Positions 8,801 to 42,551 of a stretch of 64,000 nucleotides of DNA are shown in pieces. This stretch comes from Massilia rubra. Lineage in GTDB: Bacteria; Pseudomonadota; Gammaproteobacteria; Burkholderiales; Burkholderiaceae_D. How positions within the stretch are numbered: the stretch's first letter is position 1; the number at the start of each line of letters is the position of its first letter. Both the position numbers and the translations under genes were made by a program. The stretch lies in the NCBI RefSeq assembly GCF_011682065.1, contig NZ_VUYU01000029.1:1-64000 (forward strand). Direction: 5' to 3'. The notes beneath the pieces are model-generated. The model was not told the origin of the DNA and did not search any database. It was given only the letters and a program-made list of their open reading frames with translations.

Positions 8801-11800
8801 TCGGCGGCACCATCAACGCCCCGAAAAACAGCATCGGCGGCATTAACCTGACGCCAGGCGCGGCAGGCGTGAACTATCTGTTTGGCGAGCGCAATGCGCC
8901 TGGCGCCAACGGTTCGCTGGCCGGTACCGTGTATGTGGACGCCAATAAAGATGGCAAGCGCGACAGCGGCGAGCAATTGCTGGCCGGCGTCACCCTGACC
9001 CTCACCGGCGTCGATGCCAAAGGCGCCCCGGTCACCATGACCGTGCAGACGGACAGCAACGGTAACTACCTGTTCCCGTTCCTGATCCCTGGCAACTACA
9101 ACCTGGTCGAAACCCAGCCAGCCAAGTGGTCCGACTTCGAGGCCGCCACCGGCACCAAGATCGGTACCCTGGGCGGCGGCGCGGCCGGCCTGAACGCGGT
9201 CACCGCGATCCTGATTCCCGCCGCTGGCGGCGCGGCAACCGGTTACGACTTCCGCGAGTTCGATCCGAACGTGGTCGTCGGCCCGGCCAAGCTCGGCGGT
9301 CATGTGTACGTTGACGGCAACAAGAATGCCAAGCGCGAGCCGGGCGAAGCCCTGGCCGGCGTGACCGTCACCCTGACCGGTGTCGACGCCAAAGGCGTGC
9401 CGATTCCCGCACGCACCACCCAGACGGGCGCCGACGGCAGCTATCTGTTCGAGAACCTGGTTCCGGGCACCTACACCGTGGTCGAAACCCAGCCAGCCGC
9501 TTATGGCGAATTCCCGACCAACACCGGCAGCGCCATCGGCACCGCCGGCGGCACCCTGGACGCGGGTCCGAACAAGACCACGGCCATCGTGATCGCCAGC
9601 GGCACCGATGCGCAAGACTACGATTTCCGCGAAGTGGGCGCCAGCCTGGCGGGCGTGGTGTATCGCGACGACAACCATAACGGCGTGCAAGACGCGGGCG
9701 AGCCTGGCATTGCCGGCGTGCCGGTCAGCGCCGTTGGCAGCAAGGGCGAAGCGGGACGCGCCACCACCGGCGACGATGGCCGCTTCCTGATCGTTGGCTT
9801 GCCAGCGGACACCTATAGCCTGGTGGAAACCCATCCGGCCGCCTATATCGACGGCAAGGAAACCGCCGGCAAGATCGACGGCGCCGTTGCAGGCACGGTC
9901 GACAACAGCGGCTTCGACGCAACCGCGCCGAAGAACACCATCGGCGCGATCAAGCTGGGCGTGGCGCAAAACGGCGTGGACTACCTGTTCGGCGAACGCC
10001 GCGCACGCCTGGAAGGCTATGTGTATGTGGACGCCAACAACAACGGCCAGATGGACGCGGGCGAAACCCCGTTGCCGGGTGTACACGTGACGATGACGGG
10101 TGGCGAGAACTGCGCGCAAGCTTGCGTGGCAGTGACCGGCGCCGATGGCAAGTATGTGTTCGAGAACCTGGTTCCCGGCCGCTACACCCTGGTCGAGTCG
10201 CAAACCGACCTGCCGACCTCGAAGTACATGGATGGCAAGGAAACCGCCGGCGTCGCGGGCGGCACGGTGGACAACAGCAGCTTCGGCACCGCGCCGTCGC
10301 AAAATACGATCGCGCAGATCGACGTCACCAGCGACAAGCTGGCGGCCAACAACGGCGTAATCGGTGGCAACCTGTTCGGCGAGCGCGTGCGTCCGGGTCC
10401 TGAAGTCAAGGCCCCGATCATCAGCGGCTATGTCTGGATGGACCGCGGCCATACCCGCACCCGTCCGAACGACCATGAAGGCGTGAAGGATTGGACCGTG
10501 ACCCTGACCCAGAACGGCAAACCGATCTGCACGGTCAAGAGCGATGCGAACGGTTTCTACCAGTTCGACAACCTGCGTTGTCCTGGCTACGAAGGCACGG
10601 GCCTGCCGACCGGTCCTGGCTTCGATATCAGCTTCACCAAGGATGGCAATGGCATGCCGAACGTTCCGACTTCGGCCGGTAACGCAGGCAAGCCGGCCGC
10701 TGGCGTGATCCGCGACATCACCTTGCTTGATAACAGCGACATTACCGAGCAGAACTTGCCGCTGAACCCGTCGGGCGTGGTGTACGACAGCGTCACCCGT
10801 CAACCGGTGCGTGGCGCGGTCGTGACCGTCAGCGGTCCGGCCGGCTTCGATCCGGCGCGTCACTTGCTGGGCGGCCTGGCGGCAGTCAACCAGACCACCG
10901 GCAGCGACGGCGTGTACCAGTTCTTCCTGCAAAACGGCGCGCCGGCCGGTACCTACAAGCTGGCGATCAGCACCTATCCGATTGGCTACGTGCCGGCCGA
11001 ATCGGCGAAGATTCCGTCGTGCCAGGGTGCGCTGCCGGTCGCGGCCAATGCCAATGTGGCGCTGGTCCAGAAGTCCAACGGTGCTCCGGCAACCGGTGTC
11101 AACCTGCACAAACCGGGCGCCTGCGTTGGCCTGGTGCCGGGCGGGGCGGACACGACCCAGTATTACTACACGTTCACGGTTGGTCCGAACGGCGCACCGG
11201 TGGTCAACAACCACCTGCCGATCGACAAAATCGAAGCGGCTGGCCTGGCGCTGACCAAAACCGGCGACAAGCAGCAACTCGAGTTCGGCGAAAGCCTGCT
11301 CTACACCCTGACCGTGCGCCAGACCAGCGGCACCGCGGTAGCACAGGCAACGGTGCGCGACAGCCTGCCGGCCGGCTTCTCGCTGGTGCCTGGCACCGTC
11401 AAGGTCGATGGCAAGCCGGTGGCCGATCCGGCCGTGGTGGCGGGTCCCGTACTGGCCTTCAACCTGGGTCCTTTGGCCAGCAACAAGCAAGCGGTACTGA
11501 CCTACCGCCTGCGCGCCGGCGTCGGCAGCCTGCAGGGCGACGGCATCAACCGCGCGATTGCGTATGCCTGCAACGTGGCCAGCGGTTGCGTCACGCCGGG
11601 CTCGTACCAGCCGGTACCAAGCGCTTACCCGTCCAACCGCGCCGAGTACAAGGTGCGCCTGACCGGTGGTGTGTTCACCGAGCAAGCATGCGTTGCCGGC
11701 AAGGTATTTGTGGACTGCAACGGTAACTCGGTGCAGGACAGCGAAGAGCTGGGCATTCCAGGTGTGCGTTTGTACATGGAAGACGGCACCTCGTTCACGA

Positions 11801-32509: not shown

Positions 32510-32532
32510 GTGGATGCCAACCCGGCATCCAC
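32510..32532 (+). promoter_or_regulatory. Strong leader hairpin before the RTX gene
   Basis: GTGGATGCC (32510-32518) pairs perfectly with GGCATCCAC (32524-32532) across AACCC, ending 23 bases before the start codon, with CGCCGCTTTT after it. It may attenuate transcription or shield the leader. Confidence 0.45.
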
Positions 32533-32554
32533 CGCCGCTTTTCCTGGAGACCTT

Positions 32555-33436
32555 ATGACGACCGACATCGCAGTGAGCCTGTCCGACACCCCGTTCGCCG
32601 CTGAACCGGACGCGCTGCCCCTCTGGCCGGACCCGGATGCGAGCGCCGCCATCGCCGGCTGGGCGCCCGCGCTCCCGTTGTATGACATCGAAGCGATGAT
32701 CCTGAGCGGCGACGATGGCGGCACGCCTTACTGGTTCGCGTTGCCGTACGACGTACCCGACGACAGCGCGCGCGAAGCTGTGGTGAGCGGCAGCGACGAC
32801 GCCGACATCCTGCACGGGCGCGAAGGCGCCGACCTGCTGTTCGGGCTCGAAGGCGACGATATCCTGCAGGATGTACGCGGCAATAACCTGTTCGACGGCG
32901 GCGCCGGCGACGACATCATCGAAGGCGCGGGCCGCAGCCTGTACATCGGCGGCGCCGGCAACGACACCATCACCGCCTGGGGCGCCGACTTCACGCTCGC
33001 CTTCAACGCCGGCGACGGCTTTGACACAGTCGTGTTGTGCGCGCTCGGCCCGGCCACCATCTCGCTCGGCCTGGGCATCGTTGCGGCGAATGTGCTCGTC
33101 AGCAGGAATGGCGGCGACCTGCTCGTGCACACCGGCGCCGCCGAAGGCATGGCGCTGAGCGGCTGGTACGACAATCCCGCGCCCGAAGCGCTCAGCGTGC
33201 AAGTGATCGGGGAGGGCGGTGTCCAGCTCTACGACCTGATGGCGCTGATCGCCGGCGTCAACGAGCAGCAGGGCGCGCGGCTCGGCCAGCCCGGCATGGA
33301 CGGCGCCGCCCCGGCCGGCGGCGAACTGGCGGTGGTCTATGCCACCAGCGCCGCCGGCATCGAGATCACCGGCGCCAGCGCCGCCGTGTGGACCGACGCT
33401 TTCGGCTTCATCGCGGGCCTGGGCCTGCTGTTGTAG
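32555..33436 (+). CDS. RTX (hemolysin-type calcium-binding repeat) protein
   Basis: 293 residues from ATG 32555, with GGAG in front; an in-frame codon at 32510 falls inside the leader hairpin. Residues about 80-155 hold nonapeptide repeats of the GGxGxDxxx type: SGSDDADILHGREGADLLFG-LEGDDIL, FDGGAGDDIIEG, YIGGAGNDTITA and NAGDGFDTV. These bind calcium in type I secreted proteins. The C-terminus (GFIAGLGLLL) is hydrophobic, as in some type I signals. No ABC exporter is encoded nearby. There is no enzymatic domain, so it may be a small surface-layer or matrix protein. Confidence 0.8.
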   Translation: MTTDIAVSLSDTPFAAEPDALPLWPDPDASAAIAGWAPALPLYDIEAMILSGDDGGTPYWFALPYDVPDDSAREAVVSGSDDADILHGREGADLLFGLEGDDILQDVRGNNLFDGGAGDDIIEGAGRSLYIGGAGNDTITAWGADFTLAFNAGDGFDTVVLCALGPATISLGLGIVAANVLVSRNGGDLLVHTGAAEGMALSGWYDNPAPEALSVQVIGEGGVQLYDLMALIAGVNEQQGARLGQPGMDGAAPAGGELAVVYATSAAGIEITGASAAVWTDAFGFIAGLGLLL

Positions 33437-34910: not shown

Positions 34911-35243
34911 CTATTTTTCAGGGTTGATGGTAAGCGACCTGGCTGCCTCGGCGATCGTCCCGGGCGTGAGCGCCACCGCGAAGCTGGCCGCTTCGAAGTA
35001 GTTAAGCGCTTTGCCGTCGTGCGACAGTTCGAGGCGGCTGGTCACGAGGCCGGCGTGTTCGAGTTTTTGAAGATGCAGGTGCAGCAGGGGCCGGCTGATG
35101 CCAAGGTCGCGCGCAAGCTGGCTGACGTAATTGCGTCCGCCCGCTGACAGGGCTGCAATGATGCGCAGCCGGTGCGGATTGGCGAGGGCCGACAGGATCG
35201 CCAGCAACTGGTCTCCGTCGATTGTTGGTATATTTTCTTTCAC
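34911..35243 (-). CDS. ArsR-family winged-helix transcriptional regulator
   Basis: 110 residues from the GTG at 35243-35241, the only start in frame giving a normal ArsR length; the longer open frame has no ATG or GTG near the domain. The helix-turn-helix reads ALANPHRLRIIAALS, NYVSQLARDLGISRPLLHLHLQKLEHAGLV, then a wing with a Tyr/Phe pair. There is no CxC metal motif in helix 3, so it probably senses something other than arsenic. An ATTGTT...AACAAT inverted repeat (35221-35226 and 35249-35254) spans its start and may be autoregulatory. The divergent operon starts 365 bp away. Confidence 0.75.
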   Translation of the reverse strand: MKENIPTIDGDQLLAILSALANPHRLRIIAALSAGGRNYVSQLARDLGISRPLLHLHLQKLEHAGLVTSRLELSHDGKALNYFEAASFAVALTPGTIAEAARSLTINPEK

Positions 35244-35608: not shown

Positions 35609-36727
35609 ATGACTTATCTTCACACACTCGACACCATCGTCAGCACCATCGTGCTGCCAGCCGCCCCCGACACCGACCGCGAAGCCCGCTTTCCGCGCGC
35701 CGCCATCGACGCGCTGGGCCAGGCCGGCCTGCTCGGCCTTGTCAGCAGCAAGGACGTGGGCGGCATGGGCCTCGGTTTGCCCGAGGCTGCGCAACTGATC
35801 GAGCGCCTGGCCAAGGCCTGCCCGTCGACCGCGATGATCGTCTGCATGCACCTGTGCGCGGCCACCGTGCTGGAAAAATTCGCCACTGAAAACGTGCGCC
35901 GCGACGTCGCTTGCGGGCGCCACCTGAGCACCCTGGCCTGGTCCGACAACGGCTCGCGCAGCCACTTCTGGGCGCCGGTCGGCACTGCGCGCCAGGAGGG
36001 CGATGGCATCGTCATCGACGGCAGCAAGTCGATGGTCACCGCCGCCGGCGAAGCCGATTCGTACGTCTGGTCGACCGCGCCGGTGGCCAAAGAAGGCGCC
36101 AGCACCCTGTGGCTGGTCGACAGCAAGAGCGCCGGCCTCTCCGAACCGAAAGCGTTCGACGGCATGGGCTTGCGCGGCAACCGTTCCTCGCCGATCAGCG
36201 CAAGCGGCGTGCGCGTCACCCCGGCGGCCATGCTCGGCGTGGACGGCGGCGGCTTCGACATCATGATCGGCGCGGTGCTGCCGGTGTTCTCGACCCTGAT
36301 CGCCTCGTCCTCGCTGGGGCAGATGGAGGCGGTGCTGGAAGCGGCGTGCGCGCACGCGGCCGGCAGCAAGCTCGAACACCTGGGCAGCTCCTTGTCGGAA
36401 CTGCCGACCATCCGCGCCTACCTGGCGCGCGCCCGCATCCAGGCCGACATGGTGCGCACCCTGCGCGACGATACGCTCGCCGCGCTGGCCGCCAACCGTC
36501 CGGACGCCATGCTGCGCGTGATGCAGGTCAAAGCGGCAGCGGCCGAAGCGGCGCTGGAAGTGACCGACACCGCCATGCGCGTGTGCGGCGGCGCGGCCTT
36601 CCGCAAGGATGTCGGCATCGAACGTTACTTCCGCGACGCGCGCGCCGCCTCGGTCATGGCGCCGACCTCCGACGTGCTGTTCGATTTTATCGGCAAGGCC
36701 GTTTGCGGCATGCCGGTGTTCGGTTAA
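35609..36727 (+). CDS. Acyl-CoA dehydrogenase-family flavoprotein
   Basis: 372 residues from ATG 35609, with AGGGA upstream. The three-domain ACAD pattern is clear: LGQAGLLGLVSSKDVGGMGLGL, the middle beta domain (DGSKSMVTAAGEADSYVWSTA, GLRGNRSSPISASGVRV) and a helical C-domain ending MRVCGGAAFRKD...YFRDARAASVMAPTSDVL. It is shorter than most beta-oxidation enzymes and sits with a PhnD-like protein and a diiron protein, not with thiolases. An oxidase or monooxygenase-type role (as in DszC or SfnB relatives) is as likely as fatty acid oxidation. It heads a three-gene operon. Confidence 0.82.
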   Translation: MTYLHTLDTIVSTIVLPAAPDTDREARFPRAAIDALGQAGLLGLVSSKDVGGMGLGLPEAAQLIERLAKACPSTAMIVCMHLCAATVLEKFATENVRRDVACGRHLSTLAWSDNGSRSHFWAPVGTARQEGDGIVIDGSKSMVTAAGEADSYVWSTAPVAKEGASTLWLVDSKSAGLSEPKAFDGMGLRGNRSSPISASGVRVTPAAMLGVDGGGFDIMIGAVLPVFSTLIASSSLGQMEAVLEAACAHAAGSKLEHLGSSLSELPTIRAYLARARIQADMVRTLRDDTLAALAANRPDAMLRVMQVKAAAAEAALEVTDTAMRVCGGAAFRKDVGIERYFRDARAASVMAPTSDVLFDFIGKAVCGMPVFG

Positions 36728-36737
36728 GGAGCGCGCG

Positions 36738-37592
36738 ATGAACACACCATTGATGATGGGCGCCGTGGCCTACGCACCGAAAGTCGTGACGATCTGGGAA
36801 GGCTTCAAGGAGTACTTCCGCCGCCATGATTTCGAATTCGATTACATTTTGTACTCCAACTACGAGCGCCAGGTTCAGGCGCAGTTCGACGGCAGCATTG
36901 CGCTGGCGTGGAATTCGCCGCTGGCCTGGGTGCGGGCCGACCGCATGGCGCGCGCACGCGGGCTTGAAGTGAGCGCGCTGGCCATGCGCGACAGCGACTG
37001 CGACCTGACCTCGGTGCTGGTCACGCGGACCGGCCCGCTGCTCACGCTGGAACAACTCAAGGGCAAGACGATCGGGTTTGGCGCCATCGACTCGCCGCAG
37101 GCGCACCTGATTCCGCTCGACCTGCTGCGCCAGCACGGCATGCTGGCCGGGCGCGATTACACGGCGCGCCGCTTCGACGTTTTGGGCGGCAAGCACGGCG
37201 ACCATATCGGCGGCGAACGCGAGGCCGCGCTGGCGCTCATCGCCGGCGAGATCGACGCCGCCTGGATGATCGACAGTAACCACATGGCCTTTTCGCGCGA
37301 AGGCGTGCTGCCGGCCGGCGCCACCACGATCCTGGCGCGCACGGCGCCGTTCGATCACTGTAACTTCACGGTCAGCCCCGGCGCGCCGGCGGAGAGAATC
37401 GCGCGCTTCGGCGAACTGCTGCTGGCCATGAGCTGGGACGACCCGGAAGTGCGCCCGCTGCTCGAACTCGAGGGCCTGAAAACCTGGCTGCCGGGACGCA
37501 CGAGCGGCTACGACGCGCTGGTGCGGGCGGTGGACGACGAAGCTTTCTACGACGCGGAAGGGAAGATCCTTGCCACCGACTATCGATATTGA
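36738..37592 (+). CDS. PhnD/SsuA-type periplasmic-binding-fold protein lacking a signal peptide
   Basis: 284 residues, with TAAGGAG before ATG 36738, ten bases after the flavoprotein gene. The fold resembles PhnD/TauA ligand-binding proteins: FDGSIALAWNSPLAWVRADRM, LTLEQLKGKTIGFG, SPQAHLIPLDLL, ALIAGEIDAAWMID. The N-terminus (MNTPLMMGAVAYAPKVV) has no export signal, and no permease or ATPase gene is adjacent. It probably binds a small ligand in the cytoplasm, as an enzyme subunit or sensor. Confidence 0.78.
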   Translation: MNTPLMMGAVAYAPKVVTIWEGFKEYFRRHDFEFDYILYSNYERQVQAQFDGSIALAWNSPLAWVRADRMARARGLEVSALAMRDSDCDLTSVLVTRTGPLLTLEQLKGKTIGFGAIDSPQAHLIPLDLLRQHGMLAGRDYTARRFDVLGGKHGDHIGGEREAALALIAGEIDAAWMIDSNHMAFSREGVLPAGATTILARTAPFDHCNFTVSPGAPAERIARFGELLLAMSWDDPEVRPLLELEGLKTWLPGRTSGYDALVRAVDDEAFYDAEGKILATDYRY

Positions 37593-38772
37593 GGACCTGG
37601 GCTTCGACGCCGGCGCCCACCTGCTGGTCAAGCACGGCTTGCAGCAGCTGGCGCCGGGCGAGGAGCTCGATGTCACGGGCAGCGGCGCGGGCTGGGACGG
37701 GCAACTGGGCGCCTGGTGCCGCAGCCAGGGGCACCCGTGCGCGCCGCATGACGTGGACGGGCGCAAGCTCGTGCGCGTGACGCGCGGCGGCGCCTCGGCC
37801 GGCCGCTGGCGCGCCGCGCTGCACAGCGGCCATGCCGACCCGCGTGCCGATGGCGCCATCGCCGACCAGGCCAAGGCCCAGTGGGGCCTGGCCGCGCGCG
37901 GCGCCACCGTCGAAGCGGGGTCGCCGGCCATGCAATTTCGCCTCGACCAGAAGGAAGAAGTGTGGGCCGAGCGCGCGGCCGACCTGTACGCGCAGGCTGC
38001 CGCCGCCCAGTGGGACCCGGAGACGGCCATCGACTGGAAGGCCGACTTCACCTTGCCCGACATGGTCGAAGACGCGGTGGTGCAGGTGCTGACCTACATG
38101 ATCGAAAACGAAGTGGCGGCGCTGGTGGTGCCGGCGCGCTTTTTGGGGCAGGTGCATCCGCATTTTCGAGAAGTGCAGGCGGTGCTGGCGATCCAGGTGG
38201 CTGACGAAGCGCGCCACATCGAGGTGTTCACGCGGCGCGTGCGGCTCAAGGGCAGGGAGCCGGGCCTGTCGACGGCGGGCGGGCAAAGCTCGCTCAAGAC
38301 GCTGCTCGACGAGCAGGATTTTTCGGTGGCCGAGTTTTTGCTGTCGGTGCTGGGGGAGGGCACGTTCGTCAGCCTGCTGCACTTCTTGCATGCGTACGCG
38401 CCGGACCCGGTCACGCGCCAGATCGCGCGCCTGGCCGCGCGCGACGAAGCGCGCCATGTCGCCTTCGGCATGACGCACCTGGCGGCGCGGCTCGAACGCG
38501 AGCCGGCCTTTCGCACGCGCCTGGCCAACGCGGTCCAGTCGCGCAACGATGCGCTGGCGGCCAGCTCGGGACTGAACGAAGAAGTGTTCGATTCCCTGAT
38601 CCTGCTGGCGGCGGGCGCGCTGACCCCGGGCGCGATCGCGGCCGGCTATGTGCGGGTGCAGCAGCTGATGGTGGACATGGCCGAAGGGCGCCAGTCGCGC
38701 CTGGAGCGGCTGGGGTTTTCGAAGGCCGAGGCGCGCCAGTTGTCGGCGCTGCATACACGCAATTTCATGTGA
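37570..38772 (+). CDS. Fusion of a TusA-like domain to a ferritin-like diiron oxygenase domain
   Basis: 400 residues. The TTG at 37570 overlaps the upstream gene by 23 bases and follows GGAAG. Residues 1-75 resemble TusA/SirA (IEDLGFDAGAHLLVKHGLQ, LAPGEELDVTGS, GAWCRSQGHPC), but the CPxP cysteine position is not cysteine. From about 150 a four-helix diiron domain carries the full ligand set: Glu179/181, Glu213 with His216 (DEARH), Glu263 (GEGTF), and Glu293 with His296 (DEARH). This is the ExxH...ExxH pattern of R2-like oxygenases. The substrate is unknown; the context suggests an oxidative pathway with the flavoprotein. Confidence 0.75.
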   Translation: MPPTIDIEDLGFDAGAHLLVKHGLQQLAPGEELDVTGSGAGWDGQLGAWCRSQGHPCAPHDVDGRKLVRVTRGGASAGRWRAALHSGHADPRADGAIADQAKAQWGLAARGATVEAGSPAMQFRLDQKEEVWAERAADLYAQAAAAQWDPETAIDWKADFTLPDMVEDAVVQVLTYMIENEVAALVVPARFLGQVHPHFREVQAVLAIQVADEARHIEVFTRRVRLKGREPGLSTAGGQSSLKTLLDEQDFSVAEFLLSVLGEGTFVSLLHFLHAYAPDPVTRQIARLAARDEARHVAFGMTHLAARLEREPAFRTRLANAVQSRNDALAASSGLNEEVFDSLILLAAGALTPGAIAAGYVRVQQLMVDMAEGRQSRLERLGFSKAEARQLSALHTRNFM

Positions 38773-39663: not shown

Positions 39664-40593
39664 ATGCAACTCAAGATCGTTGTTGCCGGCCTGATGGCGC
39701 TGGCGTGCTCGTTGCCGGCGTCCGCGCAGACGGCCGAGCGGGCCGGCGGCCAGCGCAAGCTTGCTGCCAAGCCGGATGGGCTCGGCACAGTGCTTCCCGC
39801 CGGCCTGACCGCGCAACAGCTGGTCGCCCTGATCGCGCCTGGCCGCGACCCCGCGCTGGCCACCCTGGTCGGCGCAAAAGCCTGGCCGCATCGCGCCAAT
39901 ACCTACGTGGTCATCGCTTGTTTCGTGCGCAGCAAAGCGGAACGCGCGTCGGAGCAGAAATACAGCAAGGAGCCGAGCTGCGAAAGAATGTACCAGCCAG
40001 GCGAGGTGCCGCACTATGTCGACCGGCCGACTTATCTGGGTGTGGTGCAGTACCAGGGCGGCGGCGCCGCGCCGACGCTCGTTGCCAGCTACGGGAAACC
40101 GTACGATGTCAGGACCCGATGGGATGCCTCCGGCCTCGACGGCCCTGACGGCGACCCCGGCCTTCCCGCAGGCGCGGCGGGAGGCCTGCTGCCCGAAACG
40201 GTCAATCGTTTCGACTTCGCTCCCTACAAGATCACCGCGACGGAAACGGCGATCGGACTGCGCCTCGGCTGGCATGAGGGCTATGCCGGCGGTGGGGCGT
40301 TTTATGAAGCGCTGGCGCTGTTCCGGATCGACGGCGACAAGCTGGTCAATATTCTGTCGGAACCGATCGCTTTTCACAGCAACCTGGCCGGGGAACTGCA
40401 CAAGGATGGCACCAGGGAGCGGGAAATTGCGGAAGGAACGAGCGTGCTGTCCATTCTTCCGGGCACGACCAACGGCTACGCCGACCTGGAAATGCGCATG
40501 CTCAAAAGCAAGTGGAAGCAAGTCTTCACCTGGGACGGCAAGGCGGCCAGATACGTGCCCGCCAAGCCGGCGCCGGGAGCGAAAAGTCGCTGA
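39664..40593 (+). CDS. Secreted protein of a triplicated family, copy 1
   Basis: 309 residues with a signal peptide (MQLKIVVAGLMALACSLPASAQ) and AGGA before the ATG. Conserved blocks: LIAPGRDPALATLVGAKAWP, YVVIACFVRSK, YLGVVQYQGGGAAPTLVASY, RFDFAPYKITATETAIGLRL, LFRIDGDKLVNILSEPIAF and a DLEMRMLKSKWKQVFTWDG end. Three or four cysteines are shared with the next copies. I do not recognise a named family. It is probably periplasmic. Confidence 0.72.
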   Translation: MQLKIVVAGLMALACSLPASAQTAERAGGQRKLAAKPDGLGTVLPAGLTAQQLVALIAPGRDPALATLVGAKAWPHRANTYVVIACFVRSKAERASEQKYSKEPSCERMYQPGEVPHYVDRPTYLGVVQYQGGGAAPTLVASYGKPYDVRTRWDASGLDGPDGDPGLPAGAAGGLLPETVNRFDFAPYKITATETAIGLRLGWHEGYAGGGAFYEALALFRIDGDKLVNILSEPIAFHSNLAGELHKDGTREREIAEGTSVLSILPGTTNGYADLEMRMLKSKWKQVFTWDGKAARYVPAKPAPGAKSR

Positions 40594-40623
40594 GGCGCCA
40601 CCCTGTACCGTCGAGGAGTTTCC

Positions 40624-41523
40624 ATGTTGTTAAATCTCAAGAGCGCAGCGCTCATCTCGCTGCTTGCGGCGCCGCTGGCGTGCGCGCAAACGGCCGCCGT
40701 CCCGCCGCCGGATAACTTCGGGACAGCGCTTGCGCCCGGCCTTGACGCCAAGGCCATCATCGCCCTGATCGCACCCGGACGCGATGCCTCGCTGGCCACC
40801 CTGGTCGGCGCCCGGGCATGGCCGTATCGTCCCAACACTTATGTGGCGATTGCTTGTTTCGCCCGCAACAAAAAGGAATTCGACGCCGAACGCAGCGAGG
40901 GGAATTTACCGGGCTGCCGCCAATACCGCGACCGCCTTGGCGAGAACGAGGAGATCGGCAAAGCCGTCTACCTCGGTGTCGTGGCGTTCGCGGCGGGCGG
41001 CGCGCAGCCGGCGCTGGTGGCCAGCTACGGCAAAGCGCTCGATATCGAGACTGGCTGGAACGCCAGCGCCCTTGCGCGACCGATTGTATTGGACGATGCG
41101 GTGCGCGCGGGCAGGAGCACTATCCTGCCTGAAGAATATATCCGCTTCGATTTCGCTCCGTACAAGATCAGCGCGACGCAAACCGCCATCGGCGTGCGCG
41201 TCGGCTGGAATGAACGCTATACCGGCGTCGGCATGGGCAGCTTCGACGCACTTTCCCTGTTCAGGATTGATGGCGGCAAGCTTGTCAATATCCTGTCCGA
41301 GCCGATCGCGTTCGAAACGGACAGCAACGACGGGTACGACGCGGATGGCAACCGCAAGGGCATCGTTCGCGAAGGGGGGAACGTGCTCACGATCCTTCCC
41401 GGTAACACCGGGGGCTACCACGACCTCCAGTTGAAGACGCTCAAGGGCAGGTGGAAGAAAACCTTCGTTTGGGATAGCGCGGCGTCAAGGTATATGCCGG
41501 CGCCGCTGGCGAAACAACGCTGA
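40624..41523 (+). CDS. Secreted protein of a triplicated family, copy 2
   Basis: 299 residues, with GAGGAG before the ATG, 30 bases after copy 1. The signal peptide is MLLNLKSAALISLLAAPLACA. It shares LVGARAWPYRPNTYVAIACF, YLGVVAFAAGGAQPALVASYGK, RFDFAPYKISATQTAIGVRV and LFRIDGGKLVNILSEPIAF with copies 1 and 3. It is the most diverged of the three and lacks part of the glycine-rich insert of copy 1. Confidence 0.72.
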   Translation: MLLNLKSAALISLLAAPLACAQTAAVPPPDNFGTALAPGLDAKAIIALIAPGRDASLATLVGARAWPYRPNTYVAIACFARNKKEFDAERSEGNLPGCRQYRDRLGENEEIGKAVYLGVVAFAAGGAQPALVASYGKALDIETGWNASALARPIVLDDAVRAGRSTILPEEYIRFDFAPYKISATQTAIGVRVGWNERYTGVGMGSFDALSLFRIDGGKLVNILSEPIAFETDSNDGYDADGNRKGIVREGGNVLTILPGNTGGYHDLQLKTLKGRWKKTFVWDSAASRYMPAPLAKQR

Positions 41524-41585
41524 GCGCCGTGGCGGCCGGCCGGCATGCAGGTGGTTTCAATCGATGTTCATCAAGGAGTCTGTCA

Positions 41586-42551
41586 ATGCACATTAAAATA
41601 CTTGGCGCCGGCCTGATGGCGCTGGCATGTTCCTCGCTGGCGTACGCGCAGACGGTCGATCGGGCCAGGCCGCCGGAAAAAACCGCCGCGACTGTCAAGG
41701 GCAAGGCCCGGACCCCGGCCGATGTCAAGCCCGACGGGTTCGGGACGGTGCTTCCCGCCGGCTTGAACGCGAAGCAGCTGATCGCCCTGGTCGCGCCCGG
41801 CCGGGACGCGTCGTTCGCCATGCTCGTCGGTGCAAAAGCCTGGCCGTACCGCGCCAACAGCTTCGTCGTGATCGCTTGTTTCAGCCGCAACGAAAAGGAC
41901 GCTGAACGGTCGCGCAAGTCCAGCACGGGACCGTCCTGCGACGGCACTTCCCGGTCTGGCGGGACGCCCGCATCCATCGATCCGGCGGTGTATCTCGGTG
42001 TCGTGGAATATCAGGCCGGCAGTGCGGCGCCGACGCTGCTCGCCAGTTACGGCAAGCCCTACGATATCAAGACCAGCTGGGCATTTAGTCAGGTCGAAGG
42101 TCCCGGGGAGGACGACGATACGCCCGCAAGCGGGGAGAGCGGCCTGATGCCGGAACAGTATCGCCGTTTCGACTTCGCCCCCTACAAGATCACGCCGACG
42201 GAAACGGCCATCGGGCTGCGTCTTGGCTGGAACGAGGGCTACGCCGGCGGAGGCGCCGATTTTGAAGCACTGTCCCTGCTCAGGATCGACGGCAACAAGC
42301 TGGTCAATATCTTGTCGGAGCCGGTCTCCTTCCACAAGCTCATCGCGGGCGACTGGAACAAGGACGGCACCAGGGACCACGACGAGTACGAAGGCACGAA
42401 TGTGCTGTCCGTTCTCCCGAGCACGACCAACGGCTATGCCGATCTCCAGTTGCGATTACTGGAAAGCAAATCGAAGCAGGTCTTCACCTGGGACAGCAAG
42501 CGGGCCCGCTATATGCTGACCCGATCGGCCGCGCCAGCGAAAAAGCGCTGA
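41586..42551 (+). CDS. Secreted protein of a triplicated family, copy 3
   Basis: 321 residues from ATG 41586, with AAGGAG upstream. The signal peptide MHIKILGAGLMALACSSLAYAQ is almost that of copy 1. It has a longer basic N-terminal spacer (KTAATVKGKARTPAD), then LVGAKAWPYRANSFVVIACF, YLGVVEYQAGSAAPTLLASY, RFDFAPYKITPTETAIGLRL and LLRIDGNKLVNILSEPVSF. Copies 1 and 3 are closer to each other than to copy 2. Confidence 0.72.
   Translation: MHIKILGAGLMALACSSLAYAQTVDRARPPEKTAATVKGKARTPADVKPDGFGTVLPAGLNAKQLIALVAPGRDASFAMLVGAKAWPYRANSFVVIACFSRNEKDAERSRKSSTGPSCDGTSRSGGTPASIDPAVYLGVVEYQAGSAAPTLLASYGKPYDIKTSWAFSQVEGPGEDDDTPASGESGLMPEQYRRFDFAPYKITPTETAIGLRLGWNEGYAGGGADFEALSLLRIDGNKLVNILSEPVSFHKLIAGDWNKDGTRDHDEYEGTNVLSVLPSTTNGYADLQLRLLESKSKQVFTWDSKRARYMLTRSAAPAKKR

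Follow-up and report, generated by a model that had tools for sequence, protein, structure and literature searches.

A three-gene cassette of Massilia rubra, encoding an ACAD-fold flavoprotein, a leaderless PhnD-like protein and a TusA-diiron fusion, with a probable link to selenium metabolism

What is the function of a compact run of three genes that combines an acyl-CoA dehydrogenase (ACAD)-fold flavoprotein, a PhnD-like binding-fold protein and a fusion of a TusA-like with a diiron domain? The run lies in a 64,000-nucleotide stretch of Massilia rubra DNA (the window), which comprises bases 1-64000 of contig C40 (NZ_VUYU01000029.1) of a draft genome of 7.57 Mb; the nearest relatives of this genome, as judged from the PhnD-like protein, are Massilia (93-95% identity). 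We conclude that the trio is probably an oxygen-using route for a selenium compound inside the cell, a substrate and a chemistry that we infer. A role of some kind in selenium metabolism is moderately favored by the linkage of the trio to selA and selB, its association with SelD and the kinship of the PhnD-like protein to the TIGR04553 family. According to a 2026 review (PMC13188914), prokaryotes have no known specific system for high-affinity uptake of selenium, and the form and donor in which SelD receives selenium in vivo are incompletely elucidated. A three-gene candidate from aerobes that is found inside a sel operon makes this gap in selenium supply testable in Variovorax and Massilia, and it offers a lead to the function of three NCBIfam families known by locus number only.

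Linkage of the trio to selenium genes

In two Variovorax loci (L082 and L083), selA, the ACAD gene, the PhnD-like gene, the TusA-diiron gene, selB and a selenocysteine tRNA gene (tRNA-Sec, called by ARAGORN) follow one another on one strand, and formate dehydrogenase genes, named by eye, precede selA. The gap between selA and the ACAD gene is 37 bases in L082 and 24 bases in L083, and that between the diiron gene and selB is 13 and 16 bases, respectively; end gaps this short (13-37 bases) argue for co-transcription of selA, the trio and selB. Within the L083 trio itself, the ACAD and PhnD-like genes are 184 bases apart. Further on, L082 carries selD on the other strand together with a TIGR04553 gene. 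The selA, selB, selD and TIGR04553 genes of L082 were confirmed by NCBIfam; for selA and selB of L083, similarity to the L082 genes served the same end. A further locus, L097, has selA upstream followed by the first two trio genes, with the contig ending inside the trio. In an actinobacterium (G650, locus L146), selD, tRNA-Sec, selA, selB, the ACAD gene, the PhnD-like gene and the diiron gene lie on one strand, with a gap of 108-150 bases between selB and the ACAD gene. Because the Variovorax and G650 PhnD-like proteins belong to separate tree clades, the sel linkage arose at least twice; by our rough estimate, chance would place selA, selB or selD as a direct neighbor in well under one of about 30 lineages. 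In a metagenome-assembled genome (MAG) of Gallionellaceae (L066), the trio is directly followed by a damaged piece resembling TIGR04553, which is a weak sign. The sel genes were found by eye and by targeted tblastn, since our clustering of flanking open reading frames (ORFs) displayed only clusters of at least four loci and the sel genes fell outside it. For L209, L211 and L212, tblastn listed no match to selA, selB, selD, senA or senB near the trio.

The genome of the window contains a selenoneine cluster, senA-senB-selD (G000:C85; L210 5046-8319, and L120). As a separate observation, a SenA-like match (33%) and a TIGR04553 ABC binding protein occur 10-13 kb beyond this cluster.

Co-occurrence with SelD and SelA

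We searched for SelD in 38 genomes bearing the PhnD-like gene, picked for spread from the loci in hand; SelD status was known before selection for G592, G539, G700, the genome of L082 and G401 (apparently the genome of L084). SelD was present in 34 of the 38 and in 31 of the 32 genomes with the diiron form, and also in G540, G550 and G592, which have no known third gene. The share of sequenced bacteria with SelD is given as 33.7% in a passage of PMC5029168. Within evenly sampled host groups the excess was weak: all eight trio genomes of Oxalobacteraceae had SelD versus 118 of 137 others (hypergeometric chance 0.32, uninformative alone), and in Actinomycetota, where the trio was found via the PhnD-like gene at E <= 1e-15, all seven diiron-form genomes had it versus 130 of 191 others (chance 0.07). 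The joint chance was 0.023, or 0.038 without the two centre genomes, which had entered the samples as trio carriers, with relatedness uncorrected in either figure.

SelA was found in 22 of 34 genomes searched and not in that of the window. Selenocysteine as the sole end use was therefore rejected, and the varied end use of selenium, with SelA in part of the genomes and a sen cluster in the genome of the window, fits a role in supply.

Distribution and conserved order of the trio

Of the 69 loci given by the homologue search, we counted 57 (L048-L104) as relatives and left out 12 that contain remote binding proteins; with loci from whole genomes added, the total was 71 loci with a PhnD-like gene, which together have 906 kb of flanking sequence and represent some genomes twice. 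All three genes were matched on the same piece in 58 of the 71. The trio was found in Betaproteobacteria, Acidobacteria, Planctomycetota, Actinomycetota and one Spirochaetes MAG, a recurrence across phyla that is not explained by chance. The order ACAD, PhnD-like, diiron was kept in 44 of the 46 homologue-search loci in which all three genes were called (L093 and L103 are rearranged); gaps were below 30 bases in 43 of these 44, and 31 share the 23-base overlap of the window. Occurrence was sporadic in even samples, each of which includes the genome of the window: full-length matches were obtained in 2 of 398 Pseudomonadota, 8 of 145 Oxalobacteraceae and 7 of 399 Burkholderiales (threshold for the last, E <= 1e-50, with one match cut by a contig end). 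One contig (L098) is labelled as a Klebsiella pneumoniae MAG, and its PhnD-like protein falls near planctomycete sequences; the label is probably wrong.

All-against-all clustering of the flanking ORFs revealed no fourth conserved partner; beyond the trio families, no cluster exceeded six loci. Most displayed clusters fall within Nitrosomonadaceae or Massilia, and two of them, a generic ABC ATPase and a short-chain dehydrogenase (named by eye), each lie near the trio in four loci of several genera.

Anatomy of the three proteins

The second protein matches Pfam Phosphonate-bd at 96.9 bits (cut-off, 27), and its closest folds are PtxB, HtxB and PhnD. Its match to Rv1680, at 232.8 bits of the 400 needed, does not reach the family cut-off. 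Inspection by eye found no visible signal peptide in the N-terminus (MNTPLMMGAV) and no transporter gene adjoining the gene in the window, in agreement with an initial annotation of the window that had described a binding-fold protein lacking both. The anion-binding STSS loop of PtxB is replaced by DSPQA, invariant across 27 sequences save one Q/P position; KHGDH, HC and D85/D87/D89 are likewise invariant. PhnD/PtxB binding proteins have an STS anion loop, an export signal and ABC transporter genes alongside; the protein in the window shows none of these. In a comparison of three PhnD-like proteins, each had TIGR04553 (putative selenate ABC transporter binding protein) as its next-best named family after Rv1680, at 50.9, 88.6 and 91 bits. 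Both TIGR04553 and PtxB/PhnD have the fold and distant sequence homology in common with the second protein, which differs from them in lacking a visible signal peptide and an adjoining transporter, in having lost the STS loop and in having gained an insertion containing KHGD. Rv1680 itself is listed as a putative phosphonate transporter component in PMC8562490.

The first protein matches all three ACAD domains of Pfam (N, M and C) above their cut-offs, and a near full-length match to Rv1679 scores 381.8 bits of the 600 needed, below the family cut-off. The dehydrogenase Glu is missing: MAPT, with no Glu in 25 rows, stands where some ACADs have YEGT, and Glu is missing also at the alternative (IVD-type) position, which is Phe in the window. 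Of eight other ACADs in the same genome, three (L002, L003 and L005) carry xEGT, four (L001, L004, L006 and L008) have Glu in a second-block xER motif, and L007 has neither. SfnB, DszC and 3-sulfinopropanoyl-CoA desulfinase are ACAD-fold enzymes that act at sulfur; the first protein shares their fold and scores 73.7, 65.8 and 94.4 bits, respectively, far below each cut-off, so it is not one of those enzymes. Apart from the trio, this genome encodes a second ACAD that lacks Glu at both positions RDARAGHVMAPT (G000:C10, L216 6281-7549, minus strand); its neighbor is a gene judged by eye to be of LysR type.

The third protein as a whole scores only 12 bits against Pfam TusA (cut-off, 28.6). N-domains cut out of 16 sequences all match TusA at E <= 1, the best of them at 2.2e-6, although the window's own N-domain, at E = 0.012, stays under the Pfam cut-off. 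Run against the PDB, an N-domain profile has YhhP and TusA as its top hits (E ~0.01), and the predicted model of the domain has a beta-alpha-beta-alpha-beta-beta topology. At the TusA CPxP position, which holds the sulfur-carrying Cys, residues 13-16 read DAGA when the PDB-hit alignment is extended ungapped by eye; none of 22 aligned rows has Cys there. In the C-terminal domain, Pfam AurF scores 27.5 bits, just under the cut-off of 29.6, and AurF was found in 18 of 22 sequences at E <= 0.01. All six diiron ligands (E181, E213xxH216, E263 and E293xxH296) are invariant in 22 of 22 sequences and sit on four helices of the predicted model, and all except E181 align with VlmB. Two claims of the initial annotation, a TusA-like N-domain devoid of the CPxP Cys and a complete ExxH...ExxH ligand set, are upheld by these results. 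AurF/VlmB relatives are often tailoring enzymes. The third protein differs from the VlmB azoxy synthase, AurF and the cyanobacterial aldehyde-deformylating oxygenase (ADO) in its fused TusA-like domain, its C-terminal HTRNFM tail and its gene set. The tail (window 38752-38769) is unusually conserved, with HTRNFM in 21 of 22 sequences and HTKNFM in one.

A sister form with a radical SAM third enzyme

NCBIfam names a sister form, Rv1679/Rv1680/Rv1681 (NF049984, NF049985 and NF049973), in which the third enzyme joins a TusA-like domain to a radical SAM domain. The initial annotation knew of no named pathway with the set of the window: no paper on the trio appeared among the matches listed, but the families of the first two proteins, and the radical SAM counterpart of the third, already have NCBIfam names. 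In G700 (locus L145), a genome that is mycobacterium-like by its gene content, the ACAD, PhnD-like and TusA-like/radical SAM genes are adjacent and all three proteins exceed the NCBIfam cut-offs. The radical SAM gene of G217 and that of G200 lie in convergent orientation; the third proteins of G700 and G217 exceed the NF049973 cut-off, and that of G200 was assigned by near identity to that of G217. No match of Rv1681 to the third gene of the window was listed. The TusA-like domain is common to both kinds of third enzyme and also precedes radical SAM in L145 and L117; the third enzyme is thus exchangeable while the N-domain is kept. Such sharing would be expected if the two enzymes perform the same step, one with and the other without oxygen. 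The Rv1679-Rv1681 cassette thus shares with the window an ACAD, a leaderless protein resembling substrate-binding proteins and a TusA-like N-domain on the third enzyme; it differs in its radical SAM enzyme, in the lack of SelD in G700 and in model names that give no function. The diiron form, the swap of domains and the selenium setting are new here, in that none of them was found in openly licensed PMC papers among the matches listed; a text search found "acyl-CoA" in none of PMC5322559, PMC2432076 and PMC13188914.

A Ktedonobacterales MAG (L088) retains a short radical SAM remnant (10314-10613) after the ACAD and PhnD-like genes, where the third gene seems to be decaying. The diiron protein was not found at E <= 1e-5 in the genomes of L088 and L086, and G592 has neither kind of third enzyme on its contig.

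Proposed function and competing explanations

A joint flavin- and diiron-dependent oxidation would fit the anatomy of the proteins as read from sequence. The best explanation we can offer, to which we attach slightly less than an even chance as a whole, is a single cassette acting on a cytoplasmic selenium compound upstream of SelD. The PhnD-fold protein, as a leaderless relative of TIGR04553, would bind the compound; the Glu-less ACAD-fold flavoprotein may work as DszC/SfnB-type monooxygenases do; and this flavoprotein and the VlmB/ADO-like diiron domain would oxidise the compound and cut its carbon-selenium bond. Inorganic selenium so released would pass to SelD and yield selenophosphate for selenocysteine, selenouridine or selenoneine, while the Cys-less TusA-like domain might dock the third enzyme to the other two. 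The substrate, the step order, the cleavage and the docking role are putative, and we infer the oxygen-dependent cleavage from the kinds of enzyme alone. The full picture is conceivable but doubtful: a dedicated aerobic pathway that frees organic selenium for SelD through a binding protein turned enzyme, a Glu-less ACAD and a diiron oxygenase docked by its TusA-like domain, and beside it a radical SAM twin that works without oxygen on the same kind of docking domain. A related proposal exists for anaerobes: in PMC10418091, the use of dimethyl selenide is linked to methyltransferase clusters (sdm and type 1 mlp) that are proposed to free selenide from methylated selenium and are tied to selenium-using genomes; they differ from the trio in their methyltransferase and corrinoid chemistry, their anaerobic hosts and their proteins.

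Several observations weigh against the best explanation. Only four of the 71 loci, in two lineages, adjoin sel genes, and in the genome of the window the trio and selD are on different contigs. One diiron-form genome, the MAG G543, lacks SelD, and in Nitrosomonas G765 and G766 the only SelD, possibly not a true one, is an oxidoreductase-SelD fusion that exceeds the SelD cut-off and falls under the TIGR04369 "fusion_not_SelD" cut-off. Since most genomes of the host groups have SelD (126 of 145 Oxalobacteraceae, 137 of 198 Actinomycetota), the excess is weak and co-occurrence alone carries little weight. Furthermore, none of the three radical SAM-form genomes (G200, G217 and G700) has SelD, and the core chemistry is thus not necessarily specific to selenium. 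The last two points, together with the weak similarity of the ACAD to SfnB, DszC and sulfinopropanoyl-CoA desulfinase, speak for an organosulfur or other non-selenium compound, with the sel placement in two lineages incidental and the SelD co-occurrence a matter of taxonomy. We consider this account unlikely, though the least so of the alternatives, given two independent placements directly beside selB and the short Variovorax end gaps that argue for co-transcription. The reading of the initial annotation, in which flavin and diiron enzymes oxidise a sulfur compound or a phosphonate-like one bound by the PhnD-like protein, draws on the Phosphonate-bd score and the PtxB, HtxB and PhnD folds. 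It was not supported and appears improbable, as DSPQA replaces the anion loop, the context in two lineages points to selenium, and the clusters present in at least four loci (judged by eye from first residues) include none of a phosphonate- or sulfonate-like kind.

Another alternative keeps selenium and reverses the direction: the cassette would stand downstream of SelD and, much as SenABC do for selenoneine, would use selenophosphate or a seleno-precursor to make a new selenium-containing modification or small molecule. The presence of SelD in 31 of 32 diiron-form genomes and the frequent tailoring role of AurF/VlmB relatives would suit such a pathway. Further selenometabolites are expected (PMC9814287). 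The cassette, however, has no scaffold-making enzyme, its radical SAM form exists without SelD, and its linkage in two lineages is to selA/selB and not to a biosynthetic cluster; we regard this alternative as unlikely, and prefer supply to SelD, given that genomes differ in how they use selenium and that uptake proteins are what the PhnD-like protein resembles. Very improbable is a THI5-like self-modifying enzyme of the periplasmic-binding-protein fold that, helped by oxidative enzymes, makes a pyrimidine or some other cofactor. This reading draws on a weak NMT1/THI5 match (23.2 bits; cut-off, 20.5) and on Thi5 at Foldseek rank 45, but PtxB/PhnD match better. Moreover, no riboswitch reached the Rfam gathering score in the window and 22 related loci, where the two hits were one tRNA and the tRNA-Sec of L146.

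Features of the window

The coordinates are collected in Table 1. The ORFs confirm the spacing of 10 and -23 bases that had been reported for the three genes. An ArsR/SmtB-type gene diverges from the trio and was considered as its conserved regulator; the candidate was rejected, as close copies occur only in the four nearest Massilia loci (the match in L081 is weak, 38%), and the gene is hence local.

Table 1. Positions of the trio, its domains and the divergent regulator in the window
Feature	Position	Strand	Basis or remark
Gene 1, ACAD-fold flavoprotein (Rv1679/FadE16-like, 372 aa)	35609-36727	+	Pfam, NCBIfam
Gene 2, PhnD/PtxB-fold protein (Rv1680-like, 284 aa)	36738-37592	+	Pfam, NCBIfam
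Gene 3, TusA-like domain + AurF/VlmB-like diiron domain	37570-38772	+	
Gene 3 part, TusA-like N-terminal domain without CPxP Cys	37570-37800	+	
Gene 3 part, AurF/VlmB/ADO-like diiron domain	37960-38772	+	
Divergent ArsR/SmtB-type regulator	34911-35210	-	true start not settled

Two further features were noted by eye. Adjoining the trio, at 39664-42551 on the plus strand, three similar secreted-type proteins of 309, 299 and 340 aa are encoded in tandem as a local duplication array, and a protein with RTX-like repeats GADLLFGLEGDDIL is encoded at 32510-33436 on the plus strand.

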